Positions 8,409-64,000 of a stretch of 64,000 nucleotides of DNA are shown here, in pieces. Source of the DNA: Henricia sp. BOLD:AAB3569 (lineage: Eukaryota > Echinodermata > Asteroidea > Spinulosida > Echinasteridae); the NCBI GenBank assembly GCA_037783545.1, contig JBBELK010001083.1, positions 310,001 to 374,000 of the forward strand, given 5' to 3'. Both the position numbers and the translations under genes were made by a program. The notes under the pieces are model-generated. The model was not told the origin of the DNA, did no database searches, and saw only the letters and a list, made by a program, of their open reading frames with translations. Each line of letters begins with the position of its first letter. The first letter of the stretch is position 1.

Positions 8409-8492
8409 GAGCGTTCGAGATGCTGACACCGGGTAACATCAACTTACACCGGAGCGTTCTTTTAGCCATCACGTGTTACACGAGTCTGCCCC

Positions 8493-8560: not shown

Positions 8561-9302
8561 TCCTGAGATACCCAAATTTACCAAACATAAAACTGTTACT
8601 CTGTTGGTATTGAGCAATTTTAGATATAGGCAAAAAACAAAATGGCCGCCAAAAACCTGGTTTTTGACAGAAAATAATAATTTTAAGAGTACATTTGCGT
8701 ATGATAGCCAAATAATTTGCATTTATTTCTCAAAGGCAAATGTCTAAAACAAACCTGCATAATGTATACGGCGGCCAAATGTAAATTTATGAACTGGAGG
8801 CATTAATAGTCATTTATTAGAGGGATTTATCAGAAGTGCCATAAATATAATTTTCTAACCATTGTAGTGCAATACTCTCTTCTCTATAAAGAATAATAAA
8901 AATAATATCTCTGAGTCCCACAGGCAAGGATGAAAGTTTTTCAGTAAAGTAGGTTATATTGCTAGTGCCTTGGTTCTTAAATAATGAATACAATCTTATT
9001 GTTATGTTATTAATGGTAAATTAGTCTCTTTACCGGTTTTCTTTTAACTCATTTCGTTATTATTTCCCTCAATGTGTTAGTTTCCAGGATTTTTTCTAAT
9101 GTATATATTTTCATAGAACAAATAGGTTTTTATTCACTTGATAATGTGTGATACTTCATATCACATGCTAACGACGCACTTTGGCTTTACAACATGAAAT
9201 GTTAACGATATTACTTGAAAACTTAAATGGATGAAACTAAAAAAAATATCTGCTGATACCATTTGTAATTGACACTGCGACAGTTCTTTATGTTTGGTGA
9301 TA
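8561..9302. other. AT-rich spacer, nothing recognised
   Basis: No ORF with a recognisable domain, no repeat shared with the rest of the window, and no strong hairpin. It lies between the left outer arm and the TIR element at 9303. Confidence 0.5.
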
Positions 9303-17868: not shown

Positions 17869-18372
17869 GACATGAATCTAGGTCACAACATTTGAAAAAT
17901 CTAACTGTTTCTTTTGAGTGAAAAGATGTTTTTAAAGCAGTTTTTGAAGACAAAATTTAAGAATTAATAGTTGGTCTGGTAATGTTTCTCAGTCTGTATG
18001 TTTCGTAATAGTGGATGCGTAGTAATACGACCACTTGCAAGCAGACACGGCGTCTTAGAAACTAGTCTGGTAACGTACTTCAATCTACATGTTTCGAAAT
18101 AGTAGGTGCATGGTAATCACGACATGAATCTAGGTCATAACATATGAAAAATCTAACTGTTTCTTTTGAGTGAAAATATGTTTTTAAGCAGTTTTTGAAG
18201 ACAAAATTTAAGAATTAATCGTTGGTCTGGTAATGTTTCTCAGTCTGTATGTTTCGTAATAGTGGATGCGTAGTAATACGACCACTTGCAAGCAGACACG
18301 GCGTCTCAGAAACCAGTCTGGTAACGTACTTCAACCTACATGTTTCGAAATAGTAGGTGCATGGTAATCACG
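17869..18372. repeat. two tandem copies of a ~253-bp unit
   Basis: Units start GACATGAATCTAGGTCA(C/T)AAC and end GTGCATGGTAATCAC. Single in block C and in block A copy 0, doubled here, and five-fold at 34486-35747. Confidence 0.85.
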
Positions 18373-18958
18373 ACTAATTGCGAGCACACGGCAGTGTCTA
18401 AATCAGGTGCTCGCTTAAGGAAAACGCTCTTATTTCTATGAGGATGGTCGAATTTTGGGATTTCTTTTTGTAATAAGCACATTGACAATACAAGAAGTAC
18501 ATGTGTAAAAAAAAAATAGAAAAAGTGGAAAAATCTAAGATATTTTGTCCTTTGTTGTTTTTGGCATGGACCTTATTACCATCTCCATATTATATACTTT
18601 ATTTATCAACACAAGCAAAAAATTTTTTTTATTACAAACCAATTTACAAGAAGGAATAACAGTAGGGCAGTTGTTTGACCACTAACTATAACCAAATCCC
18701 CGAAATGTGCAAAAAAAAATGTCTGTTTCGTTTGTAATGCCTCATTTTTAGCAGACGACGAGAAATATTTCGGCTGCTACGAGTAGTCGTGTTTCCCGAA
18801 GATTATAACATAATATGCACGGATTCCTGATAGGTAACAGACGAAATAACGCCCTCAATGTAATGATTAAAAAACTTTTCATTCGAAAATATTAGATTAT
18901 TAGTATGTTAATGAGTGATTTTTTATACACCAGCCAGTGTTGGAATGCATTATATTGC

Positions 18959-19285: not shown

Positions 19286-19389
19286 GTACAGTGAAAAGAC
19301 AGGAATGAACTGGTGTTACAACAGCTACGGCAGTCAGTTTTGGCGATTGTGAAGTCATCAGTCACATGCTGTAACATTACAACATACTG

Positions 19390-21270
19390 CATCATGGAAG
19401 CCGACAGATCATCGCAGACGTATTCTAAGGTCACGAGGAGTGACGAGGTCATCTGCAGCACTGAGTGAAGCTGCCAGGGCACGAGGACGGGCTGAAGCAG
19501 CACGCGTCCGTGCAGAATTTTCAGGGCAAGAGGCAAAACTGGCATTAGAGAAGGCTAAATTGGATGCAGAGATTTGTATACTCACTCATCAGAAAGAGGC
19601 AGCAGCAGCAGTTGCCGAAGCTGATGCATTGGAGGTGGCTCTAGAGGGAGACAATATACTTGGTGGCATTAAGTCAAGTTTGGCGCTATCGCAGAAAGAC
19701 GTCATGCAGCGTACTGAAGAGTATGTTGAACGACACATGCCAGTTTTGCAGCCGATAATCAACTTCCCGCCCACCTTTTACAGTTCGCAAGTTATGCAAC
19801 CAGTTTCATCGGTTTTTCCATCAACCAATCAAAACCTGCAACAGGACTCAAAACCGGTAGTGTTGCCATCACTTTTCCCCATCAAGACACAAATGGTGTC
19901 AACGCCTAGCAACCAACGACCTGCATACACCAATGCACCGCCCCGAGACCAAGACAGCACTCAAAAACCAGAGGATATGAACAACTTGCGAAATACCTCG
20001 CAAAACGCGAACTTATTACCACAGGTTTGTCACATTTTGACGACCAACCTGAAAGTTTCAGGGCATGGCAGTCATCATTCCGCAGTGCTACCAATGATCT
20101 AGGGCTCACGGCGAAGGAGGAATTGGATCTGCTACTAAAATGGCTGGGAAAAGAATCATCTGAACATGTCAGGAGAATCCGTGCTGTACATGTTTACGAT
20201 CCAGAAACGGCTCTCAGAAAAATCATGGGAAAGACTGAAAGAACACTATGCAGCACCAGAGGTCATAGAAAGCATTCTTTTCCACAAGTTGGACTCTTTT
20301 CCTCGAACAGCAAGCAGGGATCATCTCAAGCTAAGACAACTTGGCGACGTGCTGAGAGAAGTAGAAAGTGCCAAGGAAGATGGGTATTTGCCCGGTCTGG
20401 CATATCTTGACACCGCACGTGGAATCAACCCCATCGTGGAAAAACTGCCACATGGTCTGCAAGAAAAATGGATCAGCAAGGGCTCCAGGTACAAAAACCA
20501 AAATGATGCACACTTTCCTCCATTCTCCTTTCCTCCATTCTCTCATAGATGAACGCAAGACCTTTCTACGGGAAAAGGGAATCTGCTTCAAGTGCTGCGC
20601 ATCATCATCTCACCTCGCCAAAGATTGCGGAATTGCTACAAAATGCAACGAAAGTGAGAGTGATCGCCACATCGCAGTAATGCACCCAGGCCCTGCTCCT
20701 TGGACACTAAATGCCCCTGTCCCTGCTCCACATCATGGCGGGGAGGAGGAATCTGGGTCTACCATCCCTTCTGCAGTCACATCCAAGTACACTGAAGTTT
20801 GTGGCGAAGGCCTACCAGCACGATCATGCTCCAAAATATGCTTGGTGAAAGTGTATCCCCAAAATAAGTCCGAAAGTGCAATCAAAATGTACGCCATAAT
20901 CGACGATCAGAGTAACAAGTCTTTGGCAAGGTCGGAGTTTTTCGATCTCTTCAACATACAGTCCAGTTCATCGCTCTATTCCCTCAGAACATGTGCCGGA
21001 GTTACTGAGATGACTGGAAGGAAAGCAGATGGCTTCCAGATTGAAGCAGCAAATGGAGGAGTTAGTCTAATCCTACCTCCACTCATCGAATGCAATGAGA
21101 TCCCCAACAACAGAGCTGAAATACCGACGCCAGAAGCAGCTCTTCATCACTCTCACCTGAAGCCTGTGGCGTCTCTCGTCCCAGAATTGGATCAGAACGC
21201 TGAAAATTCTTCTGTTACTTGGAAGAGACATTCTGAGAGCTCACAAAGTAACAGAGCAAGTCAATAGCTC
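19390..21270 (+). pseudogene. BEL copy 1 gag and protease-like region
   Basis: Visible signatures are an Ala/Glu/Lys-rich helical stretch (ARARGRAEAARVRAEF, HQKEAAAAVAEADALE), the gag-family phrase AYLDTARGINPIVEKLPHG, a Cys-rich knuckle (CFKC..HLAKDC) and a protease-like part with IIDDQSNKS. All match BEL/Pao polyproteins. Broken remnant. Confidence 0.8.
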
Positions 21271-21639
21271 GCATGACGCTCCCTTTGCTCAACGACTTGA
21301 CTTGGGCTGGGTTTTAGTCGGCGACGTTTGCATAGGAAATGCACACAAGCCTACCATCAACAGCTTCAAAACCCACATCTTAGAAAATGGACGTCCGTCA
21401 CTTTTCACTCCGTGCCCAAGCCGGATCCATCTGACAGAAATGATGAGTTACAGCAGGGAGCCTCACGAAATCGCACCCCAAGCAGGTCCCGTAAAGAAAT
21501 CTGCAGATAAACTCGGGAGTGACGTATTCCAAGGAACACCAGATGACAACGAGCCAGCTTTGTCCATTGAAGATACGATCTTCCTCAAGACTATGAAAAA
21601 GGAATTCTATAAAGACGAAGTTGGGTAGCTCCTTTTCCA

Positions 21640-22990
21640 ATTAGAGTGCCAAGACGTCCTCTTCCTAACAATCGTGAACAAGCCGAGCTTGCCGCTCTCA
21701 ACCAGAAGAGAGACGTACCCCAAACAAGTTCGATCCTCAAGCTGAATCCCAATGTGGAAAATGAGCTCCTGATAGTAGGCGGTCGTCTGAAGCATGCCCA
21801 ATTGGAAAGCCACGAAAATCATCCCATCTTCATTCCAAAGCACAGTCACATTGCCACGCTTCTGATACGACACTACCATGAGCAGGTGGAACATCAAGGT
21901 CGCCATTTTACCGAAGGAGCCATTAGATCAGCAGGCTTTTGGATTGTTGGCGCCAAGAGGCTCATCAGCTCCGCTATACACAAGTGTGTAACCTGCAGAA
22001 AGCTACGTGGAAAAATGGAAAACCAACAGATGGCGGATCTACCACCTGAGCGACTCAGTACGACCCCATCCTTCTCGTATGTGGGTCTAGATGTCTTTGG
22101 TCCATGGACAGTTGCCGCACGTCGAACCAGAGAAGGCCACGCACAGAGCAAGCGTTGAGCTGTACTGTTAACTTGCATGAGCACCAGGGCAGTGCACTTT
22201 GAAGTTCTAGAGTCCATGGACGCTTCCAGCTGTATCAACGCGCTGAGAAGATTCTTTGCAATCCGAGGACCAGCAATACAACTGAGGTCATATTGTGGAA
22301 CTAATTTCATTGGAGCCTGCAACGAACTCCAGTTTGGTAAGAAGCACCCAGAAGACACCGACGTCCACCGCTACCTCGGCAGTCACAGATGCACTTGGGT
22401 ATTCAACCCACCTCACTCATCACACATGGGAGGTTCCTGGGAACGCATGATTGGAGTGACGCGTAGGATCCTAGACTCTATGCTGTTCCACAACAAATCC
22501 CCTCTGACGCACGAGACCCTGTGCACCTTCTTAGCCGAAGCAGCAGCTATCATCAATGCAAGACCCCTTGTTCCAGTCTCAACGGATCCAGAGTCACCAT
22601 TCATTCTGACACCCGCAATGCTGCTCACCCAGAAGTCCGGCACCCCACCACCTCCAGGGAATTTCACCGAGAAGAACCTCTTCCAGAGTCAATGGAGACA
22701 AGTGCAGAGTCTCGCTACCAAGTTCTGGTCTCGTTGGAGTCGGGTGTACCTAGCAACCCTACAAAGCAGACGAAAGTGGACGCAAACACAGCGCAACCTC
22801 TAGGAGGGAGATCTTGTCCTCTTGAAAGATAAACAAGTCGTCCGTAATGAGTGGCCCTTAGCGCTGGTTTCTTCAGTCCTTCCAGGTGATGACGAGAAGG
22901 TCCGCATCGTAGAAGTCAAGGTTGCTGCTCGGGGAGGCGTCAAGAAATTTGTGAGGCCAGTCACCGAGCTTGTTCTCCTGCTACCCAACG
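21640..22990 (+). pseudogene. BEL copy 1 integrase region
   Basis: The zinc-binding N-terminal half (HYHEQVEHQGRHFTEGAIR, then CVTCRKLRGK), the core (SYVGLDVFGPW) and NPPHSSHMGGSWERMIG are typical of BEL/Pao integrase. Broken remnant; its sister at 46812-48617 is better kept. Confidence 0.85.
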
Positions 22991-34484: not shown

Positions 34485-34485
34485 G

Positions 34486-35747
34486 ACATGAATCTAGGTC
34501 ACAACATTTGAAAAATCTAACTGTTTTATTTGAGTGAAAAGATGTTTTTAAAGCAGTTTTTGAAGACAAAATTTAAGAATTAATAGTTGGTCTGGTAATG
34601 TTTCTCAGTCTGTATGTTTCGTAATAGTAGATGCGTAGTAATACGACCACTTGCAAGCAGACACGGCGTCTCAGAAACTAGTCTGGTAACGTACTTCAAC
34701 CTACATGTTTCGAAATAGTAGGTGCATCATGGTAATCACGACATGAATCTAGGTCATAACATTTGAAAAATCTAACTGTTTCTTTTGAGTGAAAAGATGT
34801 TTTTCAAGCAGTTTTTGAAGACAAAATTTAAGAATTAATAGTTGGTCTGGTAACGTTTCTCAGTCTGTATGTTTCGTAATAGTGGATGCGTAGTAATACG
34901 ACCACTTGCAAGCAGACACGGCGTCTCAGAAACTAGTCTGGTAACGTAATTCAACCTACATGTTTCGAAATAGTAGGTGCATGGTAATCACGACATGAAT
35001 CTAGGTCATAACATATGAACAATCTAACTGTTTTATTTGAGTGAAAAGATGTTTTTAAAGCAGTTTTTGAAGACAAAATTTAAGAATTAATAGTTGGTCT
35101 GGTAATGTTTCTCAGTCTGTATGTTTCGTAATAGTAGATGCGTAGTAATACGACCACTTGCAAGCAGACACGGCGTCTCAGAAACTAGTCTGGTAACGTA
35201 CTTCAACCTACATGTTTCGAAATAGTAGGTGCATGGTAATCACGACATGAATCTAGGTCATAACATTTGAAAAATCTAACTGTTTCTTTTGAGTGAAAAG
35301 ATGTTTTTCAAGCAGTTTTTGAAGACAAAATTTAAGAATTAATAGTTGGTCTGGTAACGTTTCTCAGTCTGTATGTTTCGTAATAGTGGATGCGTAGTAA
35401 TACGACCACTTGCAAGCAGACACGGCGTCTCAGAAACTAGTCTGGTAACGTAATTCAACCTACATGTTTCGAAATAGTAGGTGCATGGTAATCACGACAT
35501 GAATCTAGGTCATAACATATGAACAATCTAACTGTTTCTTTTGAGTGAAAATATGTTTTTAAGCAGTTTTTGAAGACCAAATTTAAGAATTAATAGTTGG
35601 TCTGGTAATGTTTCTCAGTCTGTATGTTTCGTAATAGTGGATGCGTAGTAATACGACCACTTGCAAGCAGACACGGCGTCTCAGAAACCAGTCTGGTAAC
35701 GTACTTCAACCTACATGTTTCGAAATAGTAGGTGCATGGTAATCACG
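34486..35747. repeat. five tandem ~253-bp units with dimer order
   Basis: Units start near 34486, 34740, 34993, 35246 and 35498. Units 1 and 3 share TTTTATTTGAG, GGTAATGTTTC and AGTAGATGCG. Units 2 and 4 share TTTTTCAAGCAG, GGTAACGTTTC and GTAATTCAACC. The array therefore grew by copying a two-unit block of about 506 bp. The fifth unit matches the last unit of the two-unit array at 18120. Confidence 0.85.
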
Positions 35748-36411
35748 ACTAATTGCGAGCACACGGCAGTGTCTAAATCAGGTGCTCGCTTAAGGAAAAC
35801 GCTCTTATTTCTATGAGGATGGTCGAATTTTGGGATTTCTTTTTGTAATAAGCACATTGACAATACAAGAAGTACATGTGTAAAAAAAAAAATAGAAAAA
35901 GTGGAAAAATCTAAGATATTTTGTCCTTTGTTGTTTTTGGCATGGACCTTATTACCATCTCCATATTATATAATTGTTTTTATCCACACAAGCAAAAATA
36001 ACAATTATTACAAACCAATTTACAAGAAGGAATAACAGGTAGTGCAGTTGTTTGACCACTAACTATAAACAAGATCCCCGAAATGTGAAAAAAAAACATG
36101 TCTGTTTCGTTTATAATGCCTCATTTTTAGCAGACGACGAGAAATATTTCGTCTGCTACGAGTAGTCGTGTTTCCCGAAGATTATAACATAATATGCACG
36201 GATTCCTGATAGGTAACAGACGAAATAACGCCCTCAATGTAATGATTAAAGTTACCGCGAAAAAAAATTCACATTTTCACTCATTCGAAAATATTAGATT
36301 TTCAGTATGTTAATGAGTGATTTTGTTATACACCAGCCAGTGTTGGAATGCAATATATTGCAATTAGTTCTAGTTAGGCACATTTAGCGGTAAATTGACC
36401 GGACTATCTCG

Positions 36412-36787: not shown

Positions 36788-37497
36788 GCCTTTAGTCAAG
36801 GCGTCCGTGGCGAGGTTTGTTTTGTGCACTGTTTTGCTAGCGCTTGAGGAAAGACTAACATTCGTACAGCAGATTGTTCGACAGACATTTGCACTTGTTT
36901 ATCGTAACAAATAGTAAAAAACTGTTTATTCAGAGTAGGCCTAGGCCCCTATATAAGATTTGTAACAACGGCCCGCAGATGTCGTCACAGTAGATTTGTA
37001 CAGTAGGTATTGTAATGAATCGCACAAAGTGTGATCATGATCGCAGACATTTGTATGTGTCTGCACAAGTCGCAGATGTCGTATATTAGTACTGTGTTAT
37101 CGTAAGGAATCGTAGGGAATCACACAATGCGTGATCATGATCACAGACATTCGTGTGTGTCTGAACAAGTCGCAGATGTCGTAGATTTGTACTGTCATCG
37201 TGAGGGAATCGTAAAGAATCTCAAACATTCGTATGTATTTATTTTAAAAAAATCCAAATAGCAACAATACAATAAACGCTTAGCATTACGATTTTCTAAG
37301 ATTTATTGAAGTGCAATCGTGTCTAATTGTAGAGTTTCGTAAGTTGTGGCTTGTCATTGACATTTGAACAGGATCAAAAAATGTCCTGATTGTACATGTC
37401 ATATCTTAAGGAACTGTTAATTGGGAGATCACTAGTATAAGAAAATAAATGCATACATTTGTATGTTTTCGGAATAAATTGCACATTGTAACCATAT
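36788..37497. other. unit-2-specific spacer with a ~115-bp tandem repeat
   Basis: No gene. About 36975-37200 contains two repeat units and a stub with GCAGATGTCGT, AATCGCACAA, GTGATCATGATC(G/A)CAGACATT and TGTGTCTG. The start (GCCTTTAGTCAAGGC..CCGTGGCGAG) is the reverse complement of 12187-12214. Confidence 0.6.
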
Positions 37498-38180
37498 TGT
37501 GACGGAACAATAATTACATGTATATAGCCCTAGGCACCAACTGTATGTTTTAAGCACAAAACCAACTGTATGTTTTAAACACATGTATTGAGTCACTCGC
37601 ACATTACAAGTCGGGAATCCTGTTGTCTGATTGGTCGATCAAGTTTAGGCACTGTTGTATGGTAAAGAGAAATGTGCTCAGTCTATAGGGCCTGGAAGTT
37701 TATATAGTGGCGTTCAGGCTAGCCACGAGTAGAGTTGAGTGGCGCCGGCCGCCGTGCCGGGCGCTGACGTCCTAGAGAGAGTTTCCCTTCGATTGTTTGA
37801 TTGGCTAAATTAGGGGGCTCGTGATTGTGAAGGAGAGACATGGCGGATAAAGATGAATGATTAAAGATATGATCACTGTTGTTTCTGATTCCTTGTCTCC
37901 GTCCACCAATTATTAGTCTATAGTTTGGCTCCACCTAGGAATAAGCAAATTAGGAGCAAGGTTCCTTAAGTTGATCCGCCCTTAAGTTGCTCCACCCATA
38001 TTCCGAGCTCCGACTCCACAGTCCGATTCCGATTACTCCGACTCCACAGTCTCACTCCGATTCCTAGCTCCGTCTCACAAACCACTGGTGCTGCGGCCCA
38101 CCACTGCAGGGGTTCCACAGAGCAGAGGCGGCACGCTACCAACCGGACCAGCTTGACGGAAGCTGGTACGGACCGCCACA
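37498..38180 (+). repeat. 5' LTR of the zinc-finger LTR element
   Basis: TGTGACGG to CCGCCACA. No difference from the 3' LTR was found by eye. Contains repeated ACCAACTGTATGTTTTAA (twice), a TTTATATAG TATA-like word at about 37690, and several TCCGACTCCACAGTC-type repeats near its end. Confidence 0.9.
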
Positions 38181-38181
38181 C

Positions 38182-38201
38182 TGGTGGCAGCGGTGGGATT
38201 C
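38182..38201 (+). promoter_or_regulatory. primer binding site, tRNA-Leu type
   Basis: TGGTGGCAGCGGTGGGATTC, one base after the LTR, is the complement of the 3' end of animal tRNA-Leu (AAG/TAG type, ..GAATCCCACCGCTGCCA plus CCA). All twenty bases match from memory of that tRNA. Confidence 0.75.
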
Positions 38202-38238
38202 ACCAGTACTCTGGATAACTGAAGCGGAGGACAACGGA

Positions 38239-39611
38239 ATGGAGCAGAGGGAGCAAGTCGTACTTACACCGGGGAGACACCAGGTGAAAGAGGTGGATTC
38301 TGGAGTGGAATTCCGGTACCGAGGGAGCGACTCCTTTCAAGCGGCTGTGGGGAGTACAGCAACAAGTGGAGCAGCCAACGTGCTTCAGCTAGTCAAGGAA
38401 GCAACCCAGCACCTGTTGTCTCCAATGACATCTAGAGTGAATCGTGGAGCGGCTCCAGGAGGATTGTCGGGATGGACAACTGATGGGGAAAAGTGGATGA
38501 AGCAACCATTGGCAAACAACACTACACATTTCAAGGTGGCACATGCACAATGGAGAGTTGGAAGCGAGTATGTGTGGACTGCAGTTGAACGATTCAGCAC
38601 AAGGGGTCCAGTTTTTACTACCAAGATGGAGTTGAGTCAACCACAGCTACCAAAGGTTTCCCCATCAACGATAATGGGAGGACTGGAGCAAGGATTGACG
38701 GGAGCGACAATTGGAAGCAGAAACCCAGAGAGACCCACGGCAGAACCAGAAGAGAAGACGGGTGCAGGGGATGAGAAGATCCACAGAGCACAACGAAAGC
38801 CGAGTTTTATTCCGGACAGATTTTCAGGGGACCTTTCTTGGAGGGATTACAAGGCTCATTTTGAGGCTTGTGCCACCATTAACGTGTGGACTTCGGCAGA
38901 AAAAGCATTCTTCTTGGCAGCAAGTCTAAAAAGGCAGGCCCAGCAGGTGCTTGGAGACGGGGCACACGGCGAACAAGTGAACTACGACGACCTTGCTACA
39001 AGGCTGGAAAGGAGATTTGGTCCCGGAGAACGGGCCGAGAGATTCCTATCGGAACTACCGAGTTGGCATACCCAGACCTCCGTAGTGGTTCGAGGGAAAG
39101 ACTCGCCCAGGGGCATTTCTTGGATGCTATCCAAGATGCAGAAGTGCGAGCGGGTATCTTCAGAGCGCACCCAAAGTCCTTGGATGAAGCGATACGGGCA
39201 GCTCTGGAGATATCGTTCACCAACTCCGAAAGGCAGAGGCAGCAGGGCCAAGGTAGTCGCCAGGACAGAAATCCAAGGGTCCACCGGTACGTGGAAGCTG
39301 TCTCAAGAGAGGAATTCAACCGGCAGACGCAGGCTATGTCGGAACAACTTGCCGTATTACATAGAATGATGATTGATCTAGAGAAAGCGATGCGAACCAC
39401 AACTCTGAGGAGCGAAGAAAGTGTTGCAAACAAGAAATGGGGTCAACAGGAGGGAGGCAGGAAACCACGAGAAGATGAGGCCTGCCACAACTACGGAGGG
39501 TTAGGACACTTTAGGAGGGATTGTCCATCACCTATAAACCGTGGATGGCTTTCGGGAAGACCACCCGTATTCAGCCATTCAAGAAACATTTCGACAATTA
39601 TTCCACCATGA
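38239..39611 (+). pseudogene. gag-like region of the zinc-finger LTR element
   Basis: Recognisable Ty3/Gypsy-type gag signatures are F(S/K)GD..W.DYKAHFEACA, AFFLAASLKRQAQQVLG, and a CCHC-like knuckle near 39480 (CHNYGGLGHFRRDC, with Tyr at the usual second Cys). The N-terminal part is Gly/Thr-rich without a known domain. The region appears broken, so it is treated as a fossil. Confidence 0.65.
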
Positions 39612-39735
39612 ATCCGACAATTATTCCACCGTGATTCCTGCCAGTGTTCCACCGCGATTCCCATAGTTATTCCATCCGATTTCGACTGTTCCACTGTGAT
39701 TACGACCGTTAATCGGCCGTGATTCCTACAGTGCA
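39590..39735. repeat. degenerate ~24-bp repeats between gag and zinc-finger ORF
   Basis: About six diverged units around (T)ATTCCACCGTGATTCC with a variable GACAATT or GCCAGTG joint. The last unit overlaps the likely start of the zinc-finger ORF. Confidence 0.65.
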
Positions 39736-40054
39736 GGCGAAGATGGGAGTGGACAAAGAAAAGCGGGGAGCCGACAGCAAGGACCGGCATCGGGATTCCA
39801 GAACCCAGCCCATTGAACCCAGATACCAGTGTCCCCAGCCGGGGTGCGGAACGACAACGACAAAAAGGTCGAATCTTGTCAGGCACCTCAGAGAATGCCA
39901 CATGGAGAACTCTCGGTTCCGATGTGACATCTGCGGGGAGCGTTTCACCACGAGAGACTCAAGGGACCGGCACCTCAAAAATCACCGGAGAGGCAGCAAG
40001 AACCCTGAGACATGGCGCGGTGAAGTCATGCCTTCCGTATCACGCCATGGCTAA
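39719..40054 (+). CDS. two-finger C2H2 protein inside the LTR element
   Basis: 111 residues. Finger 1 is C-X4-C-X12-H-X4-H (YQCPQPGCG..RSNLVRHLRECH). Finger 2 is C-X2-C-X12-H-X3-H (FRCDICGERF..SRDRHLKNH). The fingers are separated by a short linker and followed by a basic tail (RRGSKN). The N-terminus is Lys/Asp/Arg-rich. Nothing of this type belongs to the normal LTR-element set: gag knuckles are CCHC. It may bind DNA or RNA, steer integration, or be a captured host exon. The ORF lies downstream of gag in the place where pol would be. The start at 39719 is uncertain; another ATG at 39743 is equally possible. Confidence 0.65.
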   Translation: MIPTVQAKMGVDKEKRGADSKDRHRDSRTQPIEPRYQCPQPGCGTTTTKRSNLVRHLRECHMENSRFRCDICGERFTTRDSRDRHLKNHRRGSKNPETWRGEVMPSVSRHG

Positions 40055-40762
40055 GCATCGGGCAACCCACCCCGATCCACACTTTACTTCTCCTATGCCA
40101 CCTCCCCCTCCTCAGGGACGACCGACACAACTACCACAGGGGAGCCAGCAGGACCACATCCACGGACGGGGGAAAGTGCCTTCGTGAATACAGCGCCCTG
40201 TGGATTCGTCCACGTCGGACAGCGGCGGAGAGGTTGAGAGTCATCCGACGGATCCCATCCCCGCCAATTCTCGCGTCCGGCCAATCGCACTGAAATGACA
40301 ATCACTACCACGTTTTTCCGCGATGATGCCATCTGCCACCAAGGAAGATCAAGAGGACCTTTCACATGCCTTGAACAATAAACTGCCCCGGCTGGGTTAT
40401 ATCGTAACAGTATTCCGATGAGACTGTTTTTGTAAACATTTTCGTAAACATTTTCGTAAACATTTTCGTAATGTTAAAGAGTTGCGAAGTTCTAAAAGTG
40501 TGTAAGTTAAGTTTATATTTTCTAAATATAGTTATGTTTTCATGTTAAAGAGTTCCAGAGGTAAAGTTCAAGTTATCTTGTACAGATGTTTTTCTTTTCA
40601 TGTTAAAGAATTCAGATTTAAAATGAAATTTGTAAATTGTTTTAACCTTCAAGTTACGTTTCCAAAAAGTATTGGAATTAGCCAAAGATATTCCTATAAC
40701 TTATCTTTTGTGTAAAGCGATTATTTAGTTTTCAGGGACTGAAAATGTTGGGAGGGGTGCTA

Positions 40763-41445
40763 TGTGACGGAACAATAATTACATGTATATAGCCCTAGGC
40801 ACCAACTGTATGTTTTAAGCACAAAACCAACTGTATGTTTTAAACACATGTATTGAGTCACTCGCACATTACAAGTCGGGAATCCTGTTGTCTGATTGGT
40901 CGATCAAGTTTAGGCACTGTTGTATGGTAAAGAGAAATGTGCTCAGTCTATAGGGCCTGGAAGTTTATATAGTGGCGTTCAGGCTAGCCACGAGTAGAGT
41001 TGAGTGGCGCCGGCCGCCGTGCCGGGCGCTGACGTCCTAGAGAGAGTTTCCCTTCGATTGTTTGATTGGCTAAATTAGGGGGCTCGTGATTGTGAAGGAG
41101 AGACATGGCGGATAAAGATGAATGATTAAAGATATGATCACTGTTGTTTCTGATTCCTTGTCTCCGTCCACCAATTATTAGTCTATAGTTTGGCTCCACC
41201 TAGGAATAAGCAAATTAGGAGCAAGGTTCCTTAAGTTGATCCGCCCTTAAGTTGCTCCACCCATATTCCGAGCTCCGACTCCACAGTCCGATTCCGATTA
41301 CTCCGACTCCACAGTCTCACTCCGATTCCTAGCTCCGTCTCACAAACCACTGGTGCTGCGGCCCACCACTGCAGGGGTTCCACAGAGCAGAGGCGGCACG
41401 CTACCAACCGGACCAGCTTGACGGAAGCTGGTACGGACCGCCACA
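40763..41445 (+). repeat. 3' LTR of the zinc-finger LTR element
   Basis: Same 683 bp as the 5' LTR. Preceded by the purine tract GGGAGGGGTGCTA, a plausible plus-strand primer. Confidence 0.9.
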
Positions 41446-41699
41446 ATATCATAAGCGTTAGAATTTGCAAATTATAAAATATGTCGTGAAGTGGCTGAGA
41501 ATCCTTACGAAACCATACAACTAATTCCTACTATTGCACATGTCGCAGTCGCAACAAATTGTGGCAAATCATGCAGTGGGCGACGAAAAACTGTACAAAA
41601 GTCTTGTGACAACCTGCGAGACGCTACGAAATTGTACCTACGTATCATACCTTATCAATTTACGTTTTACATAGAACTAATTGCAATAGAAATCATTCT

Positions 41700-43098: not shown

Positions 43099-43209
43099 GT
43101 ACAGTGAAAAGACAGGAATGAACTGGTGTTACAACAGCTACGGCAGTCAGTTTTGGCGATTGTGAAGTCATCAGTCACATGCTGTAACATTACAACATAC
43201 TGCATCATG

Positions 43210-45500
43210 GAAGCCGACAGATCATCGCAGACGTATTCTAAGGTCACGAGGAGTGACGAGGTCATCTGCAGCACTGAGTGAAGCTGCCAGGGCACGAGGA
43301 CGGGCTGAAGCAGCACGCGTTCGTGCAGTATTTGCAGAGCAAGAGGCAAAACTGGCATTAGAGAAGGCTAAATTGGATGCAGAGATTTGTATACTCACTC
43401 ATCAGAAAGAGGCAGCAGCAGCAGTTGCCGAAGCTGATGCATTGGAGGTGGCTCTAGAGGGAGACAATATACTTGGTGGCATTAAGTCAAGTTTGCCGCT
43501 ATCGCAGAAAGACGTCATGCAGCGTACTGAAGAGTATGTTGAACGACACATGCCAGTTTTGCAGCCGATAATCAACTTCCCGCCCACCTTTTACAGCTCG
43601 CAAGTTATGCAACCAGTTTCATCGGTTTTTCCATCAACCAATCAAAACCTGCAACAGGACTAAAAACCGGTAGTGTTGCCATCACTTTTCCCCATCAAGA
43701 CACAAATGGTGTCAACGCCTAGCAACCAACGACCTGCATACACCAATGCACCGCCCGAGACCAAGACAGCACTAACAAACCAGAGGATATGAACAACTTT
43801 GCGAAATACCTCGCAAAACGCGAACTTATTACCACAGGTTTGTCACATTTTGACGACCAACCTGAAAGTTTCAGGGCATGGCAGTCATCATTCCGCAGTG
43901 CTACCAATGATCTAGGGCTCACGGCGAAGGAGGAATTGGATCTGCTACTAAAATGGTTGGGGAAAGAATCATCTGAACATGTCAGGAGAATCCGTGCTGT
44001 ACATGTTTACGATCCAGAAACGGCTCTCAGAAAATTATGGGAAAGACTGAAAGAACACCATGCAGCACTAGAGGTCATAGAAAGCATTCTTTTCCACAAG
44101 TTGGACTCTTTTCCTCGAACAGCAAGCAGGGATCATCTCAAGCTAAGACAACTTGGCGACGTTCTGAGAGAAGTAGAAAGTGCCAAGGAAGATGGGTATT
44201 TGCCCGGTCTGGCATATCTTGACACCGCACGTGGAATCAACCCCATCGTGGAAAAACTGCCACATGGTCTGCAAGAAAAATGGATCAGCAAGGTACAAAA
44301 ACCAAAATGATGAACACTTTCCTCCATTCTCCTTTCCTCCATTCTCTCATAGATGAACGCAAGACCTTTCTACGGCAAAAGGGAATCTGCTTCAAGTGCT
44401 GCGCATCATCATCTCACCTCGCCAAAGATTGCGGAATTGCTACAAAATGCAACGAAAGTGAGAGCGATCGCCACATCGCAGTAATGCACCCAGGCCCTGC
44501 TCCTTGGACACTAAATGCCCCTGTCCCTGCTCCACATCATGGCGGGGAGGAGGAATCTGGGTCTACCATCCCTTCTGCAGTCACATCCAAGTGCACTGAA
44601 GTTTGTGGCGAAGGCCTACCAGCACGATCATGCTCCAAAATATGCTTGGTGAAAGTGTATCCCCAAAATAAGTCCGAAAGTGCAGCCAAAATGTACGCCA
44701 TAATCGACGATCAGAGTAACAAGTCTTTGGCAAGGTCGGAGTTTTTCGATCTCTTCAACATACAGTCCAGTTCATCGCTCTATTCCCTCAGAACATGTGC
44801 CGGAGTTACTGAGATGACTGGAAGGAAAGCAGATGGCTTCCAGATTGAAGCAGCAAATGGAGGAGTTAGTCTAATCCTACCTCCACTCATCGAATGCAAT
44901 GAGATCCCCAACAACAGAGCTGAAATACCGACGCCAGAAGCAGCTCTTCATCACTCTCACCTGAAGCCTGTGGCGTCTCTCGTCCCAGAATTGGATCAGA
45001 ATGCTGAAATTCTTCTGTTACTTGGAAGAGACATTCTGAGAGCTCACAAAGTAAGAGAGCAAGTCAATGGCCCGCATGACGCTCCCTTTGCCCAACGACT
45101 TGACTTGGGCTGGGTTTTAGTCGGCGACGTTTGCATAGGAAATGCACACAAGCCTACCATCAACAGCTTCAAAACCCACATCTTAGAAAATGGACGTCCG
45201 TCACTTTTCACTCCGTGCCCAAGCCGGATCCATCTGACAGAAATGATGAGTTACAGCAGGGAGCCTCACGAAATCGCACCCCAAGCGTTCAACGCAGGTC
45301 CCGTAAAAAAATCTGCAGATAAACTCGGGAGTGACGTATTCCAAGGAACACCCGATGACAACAAGCCAGCTTTGTCCATTGAAGATACGATCTTCCTCAA
45401 GACTATGGAAAAGGAATTCTATAAAGACGAGGCCAACAGTTGGGTAGCTCCTTTTCCATTTAGAGTGCCAAGACGTCCTCTTCCTAACAATCGTGAATAA
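43210..45500 (+). pseudogene. BEL copy 2 gag and protease-like region
   Basis: Carries KHVAFSD-free BEL signatures: RARGRAEAARVRAVFAEQ coiled coil, LKWLGKESSEHVRRIRAV, SILFHKLDSFPRTASRDHL, the knuckle CFKCCASSSHLAKDC, and the protease-like IIDDQSNKSLARSEFF. Interrupted remnant. Confidence 0.8.
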
Positions 45501-45548
45501 GCCGTTAGCCGACTCACCTCACTGCGACGCAGTCTAGACACGAAACCT

Positions 45549-46810
45549 GTGATGAAAGAGCAGTACTTGGCTTTCATGAATAAGCTGTTGGAAAACGATC
45601 ACGCAGAGGTAGCGCCCCAACTTCAAGCGGGAGAAGAGTGCTGGTACCTGCCAACATTTGGTGTGTATCATCCGCAGAAGCCAGACCAAATCAGGGTAGT
45701 ATTTGACTCGAGTGCCAAGCATGATGGCATCTCCCTCAACGATGTCCTACTCTCCAGCCCTGATCTTAATAACAGTCTCATGGGAGTTCTAATTCGTTTC
45801 AGGAAGGAACCAGTCGCAGTGATCGCAGACATCCAACAGATGTTCTACTGTTTTGCCGTACGAGAGGATCACATAAATTACCTGAGATTCCTGTGGTACA
45901 GAGATAACAACTTGACAAAGGACGTCATCGAGTACAGAATGAAGGTCCATGTCTTTGGAAACAGCCCATCCCCCGCAGTAGCCATATATGGTCTGAGAAG
46001 AGCCGCCCAAGAAGGTGAACCTGCCCATGGCTCAGACACCCGAGAATTTGTTGAGAGGCATTTTTACGTCGATGATGGACTCACTTCAGTCCCCACAGAT
46101 GAGCAAGCTATAGACCTCCTGCAGAGAACCCAATCATCATTGTCAGAGTCAAATTTGCGGCTGCACAAGGTTGCTTCAAACAGCATATCTGTGATGCAAG
46201 CATTCCCCCAAGAAGACCATGCCAAAGGTATGAAAGACTTTGGTCTTGGAGATGAGACAGGACCGGTCCAGCGCAGTTTGGGATTATGCTGGGAGACGGC
46301 ACCTGACACATTCACATTCAAGGTTTCAACAAAGGATAAGCCATTCACACGCCGAGGTATCCTGTCAACATTGAACAGCCTTTTCGGGTGGGACACGCCA
46401 CTCCCTGAAGTTCGGATGAATGAATGGGAGGCATGGAAAGATTCCCTTCAGTGTTTGGAACAGCTCCATATCCCTCGCACCTATGCCTCAAAATCCCTCA
46501 CAATTAAGAGTACAGAAGACCGACTTGTGTCTATTCTCAGATGCATCGACTCGAGCCATCGGCGCAGTGGCCTATCACAGAACCATAGACGAATCTGGGA
46601 AGGTTGAAATGGGATTTGTTTTAAGAAAATCCAAGCTGGCTCCCTTGCTACAACCAACAATACCACGTCTAGAACTGTGTGCTGCAGTGCTGGCCATGGA
46701 GATGGCAGACTTCATCCTGGACGAGATTGACTTCAAACCAGAAGCAGTGAAGTTCTATTGTGACAGCAAGGTTGTTCTCGGGTACATTTGCAATGAAACA
46801 AGCGTTTCTA
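45549..46810 (+). pseudogene. BEL copy 2 reverse transcriptase and RNase H-like region
   Basis: RT signatures of the BEL/Pao type: LPTFGVYHPQKPDQIRVVFD, SLNDVLLSSPDLNNSLMGVL, AVIADIQQMFYCFAVRED (motif A) and HFYVDDGLTSVPT (YVDD, motif C). A following part with ALGAV-like ASTRAIGAVAYHR and RLELCAAVLAME is RNase H-like. Copy 1 has no counterpart that I could recognise. Confidence 0.85.
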
Positions 46811-46811
46811 C

Positions 46812-48617
46812 GTGTACGTACACAACAGAGTTCAGCGGATCAGGCAGTCAACCAACCCAGAACAATGGCACTACGTACCAACAGAGCACAACCCGGCCGA
46901 CCACGCTTCTAGAGCAGTCTCGGCATCTCAGCTCACGGATACATCATGGTTCACAGGACCGACCTTCTTGCTCAAAGCAGACGATGCCAAGAAGGAAGAG
47001 AATCCTTTCGACTTGATCAGTCCAGAGATGGATGCAGATATTCGGCCAGAAGTGAGAAGTTTTGTCACCCAGACTGACAAGAGACGGCTTACGTCGGAGC
47101 GATTTGAGCACTTCTCGACATGGAACTCTCTCTTAAGGGGTGTTGCATTCCTCATCCATGTCGCTCGTTCCTACCAGAACTCAGAAAATAAGTCTACCGA
47201 ATGCAGAGGTTGGCACGTATGCCATAAGCCACGCACTCCAGATGAGTTGGACCAGGCCAAACAAGTCATTCTCAAGACAATTCAAGGAGAAGCCTACTCT
47301 GACGAGCTTGCCGCTCTCGACCAGAAGAGAGACGTACCCCAAACAAGTTCGATCCTCAAGCTGAATCCCAATGTGGAAAATGAGCTCCTGATAGTAGGCG
47401 GTCGTCTGAAGCATGCCCAATTGGAAAGCCACGAAAATCATCCCATCTTCATTCCAAAGCACAGTCACATTGCCACGCTTCTGATACGACACTACCATGA
47501 GCAGGTGGAACATCAAGGTCGCCATTTTACCGAAGGAGCCATTAGATCAGCAGGCTTTTGGATTGTTGGCGCCAAGAGGCTCATCAGCTCCGCTATACAC
47601 AAGTGTGTAACCTGCAGAAAGCTACGTGGAAAAATGGAAAACCAACAGATGGCGGATCTACCACCTGAGCGACTCAGTACGACCCCATCCTTCTCGTATG
47701 TGGGTCTAGATGTCTTTGGTCCATGGACAGTTGCCGCACGTCGAACCAGAGGAGGCCACGCACAGAGCAAGCGTTGGGCTGTACTGTTAACCTGCATGAG
47801 CACCAGGGCAGTGCACTTTGAAGTTCTAGAGTCCATGGACGCTTCCAGCTGTATCAACGCGCTGAGAAGATTCTTTGCAATCCGAGGACCAGCAATACAA
47901 CTGAGGTCAGATTGTGGAACTAATTTCATTGGAGCCTGCAACGAACTCCAGTTTGGTAAGAAGCACCCAGAAGACACCGACGTCCACCGCTACCTCGGCA
48001 GTCACGGATGCACTTGGGTATTCAACCCACCTCACTCATCACACATGGGAGGTTCCTGGGAACGCATGATTGGAGTGACGCGTAGGATCCTAGACTCTAT
48101 GCTGTTCCACAACAAATCCCCTCTGACGCACGAGACCCTGTGCACCTTCTTAGCCGAAGCACCAGCTATCATCAATGCAAGACCCCTTGTTCCAGTCTCA
48201 ACGGATCCAGAGTCACCATTCATTCTGACACCCGCAATGCTGCTCACCCAGAAGTCCGGCACCCCACCACCTCCAGGGAATTTCACCGAGAAGAACCTCT
48301 TCAAGAGTCAATGGAGACAAGTGCAGAGTCTCGCTACCAAGTTCTGGTCTCGTTGGAGTCGGGAGTACCTAGCAACCCTACAAAGCAGACGAAAGTGGAC
48401 GCAAACACAGCGCAACCTCCAGGAGGGAGATCTTGTCCTCTTGAAAGATAAACAAGTCGTCCGTAATGAGTGGCCCTTAGCGCTGGTTTCTTCAGTCCTT
48501 CCAGGTGATGACGAGAAGGTCCGCATCGTAGAAGTCAAGGTTGCTGCTCAGGGAGGCGTCAAGAAATTTGTGAGGCCAGTCACCGAGCTTATTCTCCTGC
48601 TACCCAACGAGGACTGA
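46812..48617 (+). pseudogene. BEL copy 2 integrase region
   Basis: A long open stretch with the BEL H2C2 zinc-binding part (HYHEQVEHQGRHF..CVTCRKL), the DDE core (GLDVFGPW, RSDCGTNFIGA, GGSWERMIGVTRR) and the C-terminal basic part (NLQEGDLVLLKDKQVVRNEWPLALV). The typical order for the family. Confidence 0.85.
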
Positions 48618-58599: not shown

Positions 58600-59931
58600 T
58601 TAAGCAGGTAACAGGCATGATTGTAACAGAGCCAGGCTTTGCTTTTGAATAGCAAAATGCTCTTCCAGTAACTTAGTTTCTGATTTCCCAAGACGACCAT
58701 ACCCTAGGCGATCTGGGGGCTGCCTCTGGCGGGACGGCCATCGACGGCGTGCAGGTGAAGGTGGCCCACTAGATGAAGATTCTTCGGGGGAGGAACTGGA
58801 GACGTCGGAGTCGTCATTCGTCTCAGGGAGTGAGACATTAACAGGGCCGATCGCCGGGCTAGAACCAGTGGTGGCTTGGGAGTCGGCTATTTCTTCCACG
58901 TCTGTGGCCTCTTCCTCAGGGGTGGGACTTGATGCAGTTGTCGCCGATGGATGGAATTCTGGTGCTTCCGGATCCAGGGCCAGTTTGTTCACATCGTCGT
59001 CTGTCCCCGTTGCAGAAAGTGACTTCCTCGGTGCAGGTATGGGCCGGGTTTTCTGCTGGATGACTGGTACAGGCAGGGAGGATTCAGAGTCTGTCGTTGC
59101 GTGAAGGGGCTCTGGGTTAGGCGAACATTTCTGGGTTTGTCGCCTAGGTGACCGTCGAGGTGGGGCTACTGGCTTCGGAGGGTCTGGCTGGTGTTCCTTG
59201 GAGACGGTGGGGAGGAACCCGCAGGGGAGGAGCATATTCCTGTGCAGCGTCTTCTGCGGTCCAGCGCCATCTTCGGGTTCCACAACGTAAACTGGCATGT
59301 TCTCGCCGACGCGACAAACTACCTTATATGTCTTAGCCGACCACTTATCTGCCAGTTTGTGCTTCCCTCTTATTCCAACGTTGCGCACCAACACTTGGTC
59401 CCCTACATCAAGTGTGTGCTCTCTAACTTTTCGGTCATATCTCTCTTTGCTGTACCTGGCAGCCTTTTCAATTCGGGCAGTAGCGAGCTTGTGGGCCTGT
59501 TGTAACCGGTCACGGAGGTCTCGCACGTACTGGTGAGCGGACGGGGCTCCTCCAGTGGGTGGATTGACTATCCCAAACTGCAGGTCGATGGGTAGACGTG
59601 GTTCCCTGCCGAACATCAGGGCATATGGAGAAAGTCCTGTGGTGTTGTTCCTTGTGCAGTTGTATGCGTGGACAAGGGGTTTCACGTACAGACGCCAGCG
59701 TTGCTTCTTCTCCTCGTCCAGTGTGCCAAGCATGCTGATCAAGGTCTGATTGAATCTCTCCACCTGGCCATTCCCTTGGGGGTGATATGGTGTCGTGCGC
59801 GATTTTCGTATGCCGGCTAACTGACACAGCTCTTTGATGAGGTTGGCCTCGAAATCGCGTCCTTGGTCCGAGTGAAGTCTCTCTGGGAAGCCGTAGTGGA
59901 TGAAGAATTCTTCCCAGAGCACCTTGGCCAC
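58600..59931 (-). pseudogene. Gypsy integrase core and C-terminal region
   Basis: LHSDQGRDFEANLIKELC and TTPYHPQGNGQVERFNQTL are the second half of the DDE integrase core. VGDQVLVRNVGIRGKHKLADKW and VYVVEPEDG are the GPY/F-like C-terminal module. A Ser/Pro-rich acidic tail follows. Part of the fossil element. Confidence 0.85.
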
Positions 59932-59964
59932 GGTTTTTGCTTTCTGGTCTTTCGTAGGAAACGC

Positions 59965-62649
59965 CTAGGCATATCGCGTAAAATGATCGGTGATCACCAG
60001 GATGTTTCGTGTATCCTTGTCGTCTGGTTCAAGCGAGAGGAAGTCCACGCAGACGAGCTCCATTGGATGAGTCGTCACCACAGATACCATTGGGGCGGTC
60101 TTCTGCATCCTTTTCTTCCGTCGAATGCACCGGGGACAAGTGCGGCACCATTCCTCGATGTCCAGCGCCATTTTCGGCCAGTAGAAACGCGCTCGGGCCA
60201 AATCTAAGGTCCGTTCATAGCCCAAATGCCCAACCTGGTCATGGACACCCTCGAAGGCTATGCGCCGATAGCTCTTTGGTAGCACCAGCTGAAGTTGGCA
60301 GGACTCTCCAGGGCCACCACTTCCACGACGCAGTACTCCGTCTTTAATGCTCAAACGTCCCCACTGCCTAAGTAGAATCTTCGTCTCGTCAGGGAGATCC
60401 TTTCGCTCTTTGGGCTTCGGTGGGGCTCCTTTCTTGAGGCACCACGTCACGTAACGTATGTCTCTGTCAGCCTGCTGTAGTTCTACCCAGTCGTGTTGCG
60501 TTAGGCCTGGGAGGGAGTCTTGACCAGGCCACTGTATTCCTTCAAACTCGTCTGGTACAGCGCTAGTTGAATCGGTAATGGTTTCCAACAAGGTACATAC
60601 TTGTTGATGTTCATCGTCAACGCGTACTTGCTGGCACATCGCGGTCACCGTAGGTCTGTCAATTCCTTTAGTCAGGCGATTGCAGAATTGTTGGAGCCTT
60701 TCGTCAGCGGTATTGTACTCATCGGTAACCGGGGCTACCTTGGGTCGCCTGGACAGGCCATCCGCATCAGCGTTCGCTCTGCCGGGTCGGTACTGGATGT
60801 TAAAGTTGTAATTTGCCAGCGCAGCTAACCACCGCTGCCCAGTTGCATCGAGTCTGGCGGATGTCAGGACGTAGGTCAAGGGATTATTGTCCGTCATGAC
60901 CTGGAACTGACCTCCATACAGATAATCATGAAACTTCTCAGTCACTGCCCACTTCAAAGCCAGGAACTCAAGCTTGTGGGCAGGGTAGTTAGCTTCGCTG
61001 CGGGAAAGGCCTCGGCTAGCATAACCAATGACCCTCATCTTTCCATCTTGCTTTTGGTAGAGTGCAGCCCCTAAGCCAATTATACTTGCATCGGTGTGGA
61101 GGATGAAGGGAGAGTTGTAATCAACAAAACCAAGGACTGGTGCTGTCGTCAACATCTCAATCAACTCATCAAACGCCTTCTGACATGCCGGTGTCCACAG
61201 GTGGCCAAATGGTTCTGTCGCACTCCTCACGAGGGGCTTGGGTTTTCTCCCCTTCTTAGATCCTTTCCTCCTCAGGTCACACCCAGCTGTCAGCTGGTTA
61301 AGTGGACGGGCGATGGCAGAGTATCCTTGCACGAACCTCCGATAGTACCCAGTGAAGCCCAGGAAAGACTTCAACTCTCGTACATTTGTTGGGACTGGCC
61401 AAGACCTCACTACGGTGATTTTGCCAGGGTCTGTTTTGACCCCATCCCTGGAGACAACATGTCCCAGGCACTTCACCGACGACTGAAAGAATTGACATTT
61501 CTCAGGACTCAGCTTCAGGCCGAAACTGTGGAGGCGGTCTAAGACTTGCATCAACTTAACTTCGTGCTCCTCCAGGGTCCGTGAGAAAATCAGAAGATCA
61601 TCTAAGTATACCATGACGTCTTGCAAATTAAGATCTCCCATACATCTCTCCATCAGCCGCTGGAAGGTAGCGGGTGCGTTCGTGATACCCTGCGGCATTC
61701 TATTAAACTCATAGAACCCCAGAGGGCACCAGAACGCCGTCTTGTGCTTGTCGCTTTCTTCTAGCTCAACCTGGTAGTATCCAGACTTGAGGTCTAGACA
61801 CGTGAACCACTGAGAGCCGTTTAACGCATGAAGGGTCTCTTCTATTCTGGGGATGGAGTACTGGTCTCGGATGGTGCGGGAATTTAACTTCCTGTAATCT
61901 ATGCACAGTCTGACATCTCCGTTCTTCTTTCGGACAACCACGATGGGAGATGCAAACTGGCTCTCGGAGGCCCTGATGATATGTTTATCCAGCAGCTGCT
62001 GCAGGTGCTTCCTGACATCAAGATAATCTGCGGGAGCAATGTTCCGAGACCTCACTCTGAATGGGGAGTCGTCCGTCAGGTTAATATGGTGCTTAACCGA
62101 TGCAGTTCTCCCAATATCCAAATCACCTCTCGAAAACACAAAAGCCCTTTGTCGTAGCATCTGGGTGACCCGTTCCCTTTGATCATCAGAAAGAGGAGAA
62201 CCCTCAAAATTTAACACAAGGTCTGGGACTTCAGATGCCTCCATCTTCTGACATTGAGCCTGTTGCTGCGGGGATGTGCCTGTCTTTAGCGGGTAATCGC
62301 TGTTTAAAGTGTGTACCACGTCAACAGCATACGCATGGGCGATGATGGACCCTTCTGGTAGAACGATGTCGTGCTGTGTCTGGTTTGAAACCATCACATC
62401 TACAGTGGTTGACTCAGCAGGCGCTAGGATGTCTACTGCTCGCTTCACTATCAGCCCACCAGGAGCGATGCAACTATCCGCTGCTTCGATCATGTAGAGG
62501 ACCTCTACCTGCGTCGGGTTTGTAACGCTCGCGTTCAGGTCGACCTGGCTGCCACTTTCAACCGTAACTGCGCTCAAGAGTCGGACCTCAGCTAGCTTCT
62601 CTGATATATTCTCGGTTGAGGCAGATTCAAACTGGTGATAGGCAGTCAT
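59965..62649 (-). pseudogene. Gypsy reverse transcriptase, RNase H and integrase N-terminus
   Basis: RT: VRLCIDYRKLNSRTIRDQY, FTCLDLKSGYYQVEL, FNRMPQGITNAPATFQRLM, VMVYLDDLLIFS (YLDD). RNase H: FILHTDASIIGLGAAL, YPAHKLEFLALKWAV, FQVMTDNNPLTYVL. Integrase zinc part: HDQVGHLGYERTLDLARARFYW..CRTCPRCIRRK, then VCVDFLSLEPDD..VITDHFTRYA. Belongs to the fossil. Confidence 0.9.
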
Positions 62650-62726
62650 CCAAGCATGGTCGGCCTTCAGCTCTTTGAGGAAGTTGGGGCCATCTTGTTC
62701 CCGACAGGCACTAAATAGTCGCTCTA

Positions 62727-63269
62727 TCAGATTAGTGTTGGTCCCAAGAAGGAGTGGGGGCGATCATCACCATCCCTGGCACTCGTGACCAAGGCCAGGG
62801 TTTCAGTGGACAAATTCACACCAACTTTCTCTTTGTCGAAGCCAACACGGACCTCCACATATCCCAAGTAAGGGACACTCTGGCCACTGGCTCCCACCAC
62901 CAAGAGGTTAGTGAGGGGTTCCAGGGGCCGATGATGAAGTTTCCTTCTGTAGAACGACTCCGAAATACAGGTGACTTGGGACCCTGTGTCCAAAAGGCAC
63001 GGTACCTCATGTCCATCTACCGTAGCAGTGACAACTGATGGTTTTCCCACCAGTTTATCTGGCATACCTTGGAGAGGTTGCTGACCAATGCTATGGCAGT
63101 TGGCAGAACGCACTTCGGACTTTCGCCTAATGGGACGCTTCAACTTGTTGGCCGCTAGGGGTCCCCCTACTGGCGGCCGCTGCCGTTTCCCGAAGACGGC
63201 GTCGCTGGGGGCTTGCACCGAGCCATCATTTGCTCCTGAACACGCGTGGCATTCCTGGGGTTGGTGCAA
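62727..63269 (-). pseudogene. Gypsy protease region
   Basis: VDGHEVPCLLDTGSQVTCIS has the retroviral-type DTGS active site, followed by VVGASGQSVPYLGYVEV. Fossil part. Confidence 0.8.
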
Positions 63270-63445
63270 CTGCCCATCATGTGGCCAACTTGCCCGCAGT
63301 TGAAACAGATGGCTGGTCGTCTCGGCATTTGCTGTCTCGGCTGGCGTGGCACGTTGGTGTACGGTGTGGTGGGTGGTGCCGGGGCTTTTGCCAGTGACGT
63401 CACGGATGTGAGCTGCTCTTGCAGCCGGACGATCATCTCTTCCAT
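63167..63445 (-). pseudogene. Gypsy gag C-terminal part with zinc knuckle
   Basis: CFNCGQVGHMMGSC is a canonical CCHC knuckle preceded by Pro-rich sequence. Only the C-terminal end of gag is present. Confidence 0.75.
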
Positions 63446-63447
63446 TT

Positions 63448-64000
63448 ATTATTATTATTGTAGTAACACGCGGGGGCGTGCCTACTAGTTTGTCCCTGCG
63501 TTAGCGTGGACGGGGAGTGGGAGATGATCCCTAGGACCCGGTGTAATAGTAAATTGGTCGGAGACTACTCAGTGCTTGGTGGTGTGGTCGTTTGTCTTTA
63601 TTTTACACCTCCTCCGAAGAACAGAAAAAGAAGAAGAACCCCTGCAATCACAAGTGATTGTGAACAAAAATAAATCTAACAGTCCATAAAAATCTAGTCA
63701 ACATACATGTAACTAACATTTACATGTATACAATCTTAATAAACGTAATAAAACCTGACAGGCGAAATAATCTATTAAATATTATATGTGCCTGCACGAG
63801 GCCTTATGAGACGGCTTAATCTCATACATACCCAGCGGTATTCCTTGGACTAGACTAGACAGTATGCATGGTAGAACCTACATCTACATCAGTACATGAC
63901 TTCAACTTCAAGTGGTCGACCCTCTTGTTATGGCTACAAGGGAATCATAAACCCACACATCGATGTACAGTAATGTCAACGAAATAAATTACAACTTACA
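63448..64000. other. unassigned sequence after a (TTA)n joint
   Basis: The Gypsy text stops at a short TTATTATTATTATT run. What follows (TGTAGTAACACGCGGGGGCG..) has no similarity to other parts of the window and no domain-bearing ORF. It may be another element cut by the window end. Confidence 0.5.

Follow-up and report, generated by a model that had tools for sequence, protein, structure and literature searches.

TR-GAG and LARD are non-autonomous long terminal repeat (LTR) elements. The subject of this study is a 3,948-bp LTR element in a 64,000-nucleotide stretch of a sea star (Henricia) genome of 740.7 Mb (C1083:310001-374000, the whole of which we call the window). It resembles TR-GAG and LARD in keeping LTRs and primer site, in having lost pol and in its apparent movement in trans. 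Its family retains gag, unbroken in some copies, but in the subfamily of the window element gag is broken; the element also differs in that it adds an open reading frame (ORF) with two C2H2 zinc fingers. Extra ORFs after pol are already known: additional ORFs (aORFs) lie between pol and the 3′ LTR of plant LTR elements (PMC7264820), and among bdelloid rotifer LTR elements the ORF3 types include env, GDSL, DEDDy, coiled-coil and transmembrane, so that non-envelope ORF3s have been described (PMC5408684). The place of these ORFs is also that of the ORF3 in L064, a larger relative of the window element described below; the terms 'C2H2' and 'zinc finger' occur in neither text (PMC7264820, PMC5408684). 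A search of the open-access literature, with Repbase and subscription papers outside its scope, returned no description of a gypsy clade with a C2H2 ORF3, and such a clade appears to be undescribed there.

On balance, we favour the reading that the window element has no pol, is mobilised in trans and belongs to a Ty3/gypsy (Metaviridae) clade whose larger members carry a two-finger C2H2 ORF3 after pol. The element, whose features are on the forward strand, is bounded by an ATAT target site duplication (37494..37497 and 41446..41449, from the sequence and its flanks) and by 683-bp LTRs of the form TGTGACGG...CCGCCACA (37498..38180 and 40763..41445) that show 0 differences from each other. A primer binding site, TGGTGGCAGCGGTGGGATT, follows the 5′ LTR at 38182..38200 and presumably pairs with the 3′ end of tRNA-Leu; a polypurine tract (PPT), GGGAGGGGT, lies at 40750-40758, and its junction with the LTR recurs elsewhere in the genome. 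The TG...CA LTR ends, short target duplication, primer site, PPT and gypsy-related gag with a zinc knuckle are those of Ty3/gypsy, and L064 has the protease, reverse transcriptase (RT), RNase H and integrase of that group. Unlike Ty3/gypsy, the window element carries the two-finger ORF and has no pol of its own in the order protease, RT, RNase H and integrase: a Pfam scan of seven of its frames revealed no pol domain, and when the internal regions of ten copies were compared with pol of two gypsy elements, no match reached E≤1. Because its own pol is absent, we class it as an incomplete member, a non-autonomous Ty3/gypsy derivative. The original prediction of an LTR element with a primer site, a gag-like region and a purine tract but no pol was thus borne out.

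The two-finger ORF (39713..40054, from the ORF list and Pfam) sits downstream of the coding part and ahead of the 3′ LTR. Two stretches match Pfam zf-C2H2 (E=2.5e-10), with finger 1 (39830-39901) of the pattern CX4CX12HX4H and finger 2 (39923-39985) of the pattern CX2CX12HX3H. The two well-formed fingers that had been predicted were therefore present, but the predicted length of 111 residues was not: the ORF has 113 residues from stop to stop and 103 from its first ATG at 39743. It encodes a small, basic protein (isoelectric point 10.1). A 23-nt imperfect tandem array found by repeat scan (39588..39735) occupies the interval between gag and the finger ORF, and an untranslated stretch common to other copies (40055..40749) follows the ORF on its 3′ side.

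Gag places the window element in the clade of L064. Its conserved, capsid-like part, in the first frame (38797..39062), is 52% identical to L064 gag over 88 residues, and the gag of a sister copy matches gypsy gags at 39-49% identity. In the window the gag ORFs run in two frames (38068-39369 and 38883-39611), split at an 8-nt junction located by match coordinates (39056..39063), where 64 nt present in other copies are absent. In those copies the missing 64 nt are flanked by 8-nt repeats (query 818-825), with 57 nt between the repeats in, for example, C1667; the same 64-nt gap also occurs in C43, C194, C822 and C290. The C-terminal half of gag continues in the second frame (39064..39611; ORFs and Pfam), and ends after the zinc knuckle (39480-39530), in which one Cys is replaced by Tyr and which gives only a weak Pfam match in the window copy (E=0.021, below the curated cut-off). 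Some copies have gag in one continuous frame (535 aa in L044, for example); it is split in the window, L039, L040, L041 and L042.

The element belongs to a family that has moved recently. Where the original prediction had looked to other genomic copies, finger DNA was found in at least 32 rows at no fewer than 31 places, and 25 loci (L039-L063) were taken for comparison. The LTR pairs are identical in the window, L039 and L040; those of L044 and L047 have two mismatches each and that of L052 one plus gaps. Of the single copies, 11 include both ends and the outer flanking DNA; a perfect 4-bp target duplication is present in 9 of them (8 of these 9 with an RTAY-like core) and not in L041 and L046; the tandem L043, incomplete L048 and inverted L050 were excluded from this test. 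The identical LTR pairs and 4-bp target duplications indicate recent movement, although gene conversion could account for part of the LTR identity. Since a pol-less element has moved recently, its enzymes would have been supplied in trans, and we are confident that the element is both pol-less and trans-mobilised. Because the copies are many and several are young, the idea of a one-off capture is not upheld.

Several unusual arrangements of the family were also seen. At nine places (C9, C40, C62 (two), C266, C364, C376, C553 and C870) pairs of facing LTR-primer-site junctions enclose gag as two inverted halves. Several of them share their break points (query 797 and 1213), and we read these places as a palindromic gag-only form that has multiplied. 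Tandem LTR-internal-LTR-internal arrays with a spacing of ~3.3 kb occur at C409:76500-86900 (L059) and C903:454700-463500 (L043). A palindromic copy at C570 (L050:1-4379) was rejected as an insertion form: its 4,379-bp inverted repeat (99.6%) takes in the flanking DNA and is therefore an assembly or genomic fold-back.

An autonomous partner that shares the LTR ends, as the original prediction had envisaged, did not emerge from the LTR search (40 of 113 candidates scored), from searches with the LTR-primer-site and PPT-LTR junctions or from a search with the 3′ stretch. The LTR-primer-site junction was found at 55 places with at most 3 mismatches and the PPT-LTR junction at 30, with 0 in the reversed control of each; by their LTR end, 42 of the 55 are family-like, and ten TAACC-type junctions belong to another family. 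Nine inward-facing junction pairs, ~2.7-4.5 kb apart, leave no room for pol and were set aside as partners (DNA was read at part of the junctions; C127 is at a contig end). At C936 two LTRs stand 9.3 kb apart, with gag at one end and the finger at the other, and this candidate was rejected as the extra DNA reads as DIRS-like: it contains an RT ORF (RVT_1, 1.3e-12) together with a second ORF that matches tyrosine recombinases weakly (E=0.0086, below cut-off), and we read C936:540229-550163 (L057, L058) as a DIRS-like element nested within a pol-less copy. A last candidate, at C899:458681, fell away when its locus (L065) was found to hold only an LTR and the first ~360 bp of the internal part.

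Related families with pol reveal where a C2H2 ORF stands in this clade. From one LTR to the other, L064 reads gag, protease, RT, RNase H, integrase and ORF3. Its 865-bp 5′ LTR (214-1078) and its 3′ LTR (~8257-9121), with one mismatch seen between them, enclose gag (940-2436), protease with part of RT (2319-3659), RT, RNase H and integrase (3593-6364, RT being in two frames in this copy) and an ORF3 of 420 aa with two C2H2 fingers at its start (6459-7721; zf-C2H2 25.1 bits, just under the cut-off of 25.2). The LTR ends of L064 (TGTAACG...CGCCACA) resemble those of the pol-less family, a PPT precedes TGTAACG, and we take its primer site to be tRNA-Leu-like. A genome search with L044 gag yielded 101 rows below 60% identity outside the family (142 of 956 candidates scored), and one with the start of L064 ORF3 yielded 143 rows (150 of 472 scored). 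A C2H2 row lies 4,353-5,413 bp downstream on the same strand in 56 of the 101 gag rows, compared with 0 in the upstream or opposite-strand control; these rows count copies, not families, and the pol between gag and ORF3 was read in L064 and is judged elsewhere from distance. A second ORF3 query added no further gag-C2H2 pairs (pairing by eye). The original placement of the finger where pol should be was consequently not sustained, as the C2H2 ORF of the relatives lies ~5 kb downstream of gag and, in L064, after pol.

ORF3 fingers are conserved among these families. Ten finger domains (L064 and L066-L074) share 13 invariant columns that include seven of the eight zinc ligands, and the eighth is kept in at least 90%. 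Synonymous sites are saturated in 44 of 45 pairs (1.78 in the remaining pair), whereas non-synonymous distances are 0.16-0.92, which indicates purifying selection on the ORF3 fingers. By a crude measure, L064 ORF3 has one 19-residue segment of mild hydrophobicity (1.79), and a strong membrane segment is absent; it thus does not resemble an envelope protein. Relatives of ORF3 in viral contigs amounted to 88 pattern matches, none of which was confirmed. At C899:266333-268443 just 1.9 kb separates a related gag from an ORF3-like finger row downstream of it, which has one stop, and this is perhaps another pol-less derivative.

We propose that a deletion removed pol and would have left gag and a shortened ORF3, with Gag and Pol then supplied by another family of the clade. 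The window finger is probably such a shortened ORF3, since the clade, as given by gag, and the position agree. Comparison with the ORF3 profile by hhalign gave a probability of 94.9 over 56 columns at 21% identity, with the finger framework aligned without gaps, a fit that any C2H2 pair may show. A 7-residue linker separates the two fingers in both proteins, as is usual in C2H2 arrays. Several results weigh against this descent. A likeness of the window finger to ORF3 beyond that of any C2H2 pair was not found: none of the 16 non-family rows returned by tblastn with the window finger is an ORF3 row (150 of 1037 candidates scored), L064 ORF3 gave no match to the family copies at E≤1, and the ORF3 profile scored 16 family sequences at 13.0-30.2 bits (window 22.4) but ordinary C2H2 chains of the PDB at 32.4-70.4 bits (among the 60 chains listed of 284). 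In addition, 45 of the 101 related gag rows lack a C2H2 row in the expected range, and the 470 bp read after pol in L075, of the related TAACC-type family, contain no finger ORF.

One alternative is a separate capture of the two-finger ORF during or after pol loss, with a host C2H2 gene as one conceivable source and the ORF3 of the relatives as a parallel case. Outside the family, the rows that match the window finger best (35-44% identity) do not belong to the ORF3 set, its score with the ORF3 profile does not exceed that of ordinary C2H2 chains, and four residues stand between the finger 1 cysteines, compared with two in nine or more ORF3s. However, the window finger lies where ORF3 would be, immediately ahead of the 3′ end, and the gag of the element comes from the ORF3-bearing clade; it fits the ORF3 profile without gaps; and finger 2 reads TRRDS in deeper subfamilies, close to the TRRDN of ORF3s. 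A host exon as an obvious source was set aside, as no host match stands out in the same tblastn search. We consider separate capture unlikely, and retain descent from ORF3 as the better account of the finger.

A second alternative, to which we give the same low weight, is that the finger ORF is a passenger, once coding and now functionless, carried between signals that the element needs. Alignment of 27 finger rows (the window and 26 rows from 24 loci) revealed all eight ligands and no stop in 20, of which four (L044, L045, L054 and L058) have frame-shifting indels, leaving 16. C611:649063-649901, a 79% relative, appears to be a family member without the finger: a mere 216 bp, too little for a finger, lies between its gag and 3′ matches, and it has no finger-DNA row. 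The last His of finger 2 is absent from L059-L062 through an in-frame 21-nt deletion, and L049 and L053 have stops as well as ligand changes. In all, 11 of 27 rows lack a ligand, an open frame or both, one of them (L063) just because its match is truncated; the tail that follows the fingers varies between subfamilies. These losses and the C611 relative count against the reading that we favour, and the losses and the variable tail speak for a passenger.

The pattern of substitutions bears on the same question. After three duplicate rows were dropped, variants common to at least two of the remaining 24 rows comprised 8 silent and 8 changing, in contrast to 8 silent and 35 changing among private variants (2 of the 35 being stops; Fisher p=0.023). 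The proportion among private changes is neutral, as expected of a passenger, whereas the silent excess among shared variants is not. The other two frames of the finger ORF showed the reverse tendency (p=0.353 and 0.192), and frame tests of gag pieces and the 3′ stretch gave p from 0.089 to 1; as the lowest of 12 frame tests, p=0.023 fails correction. All three single-base zinc-ligand changes are private. Shared indels of 3 and 21 nt leave the frame intact; the exception is a 1-nt insertion that L060 and L061 have in common. All 5 copies of the window's subfamily have a broken gag and an open finger frame, which also speaks against a passenger, though weakly because the five copies are close relatives. 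Together, these comparisons of copies suggest, but do not prove, that the finger is under purifying selection in the pol-less family, and the original question of constraint on Cys and His is answered to that extent.

C2H2 pairs usually bind DNA or RNA. As the finger protein is also small and basic, it may be a nuclear nucleic-acid-binding accessory factor, which might act on the element's own LTR or chromatin, in activation or in escape from silencing. We put forward this role as an LTR or chromatin regulator tentatively, from sequence features; it would explain why the finger is kept by a parasite without pol and, in the window's subfamily, without an unbroken gag. Spumavirus Tas and VANC of plant VANDAL elements are trans-acting regulators encoded by the elements themselves. 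The possible likeness is one of role, that of an element-coded nuclear factor on its own DNA, and Tas and VANC belong to different protein classes. It is improbable that the protein instead aids packaging or integration, as a nucleocapsid helper or target-site tether: the zinc knuckle of the window copy has lost a cysteine and most target duplications have the RTAY-like core, but such a core is common for gypsy integrases and needs no tether, and L064 ORF3 is separate from gag and pol.

Other repeats lie in the window. Two related elements (19353-22803 and 43166-48617), with integrase core, H2C2 and DUF5641 in the second, which was scanned, are presumably BEL/Pao. ORFs for gypsy-type protease, RT, RNase H and integrase occupy 58600-63500 on the minus strand, and arrays with a unit of roughly 251 bp occur at 34485-35749 and 17869-18374.

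In animal LTR elements, extra genes downstream of pol usually count as envelope-like, and a conserved C2H2 ORF3 would be a different kind of accessory gene. Its presence in many gypsy families of one genome would offer a probably nuclear, testable case of an element-coded regulator, and the pol-less family a natural test of which genes a parasite keeps when others supply replication. A broader view, which we regard as rather speculative and on the unlikely side, is that ORF3 of the clade is a conserved regulator with two C2H2 fingers, which pol-less parasites keep under selection while losing pol and then gag. If so, these parasites would carry their own activator or anti-silencer instead of replication machinery.

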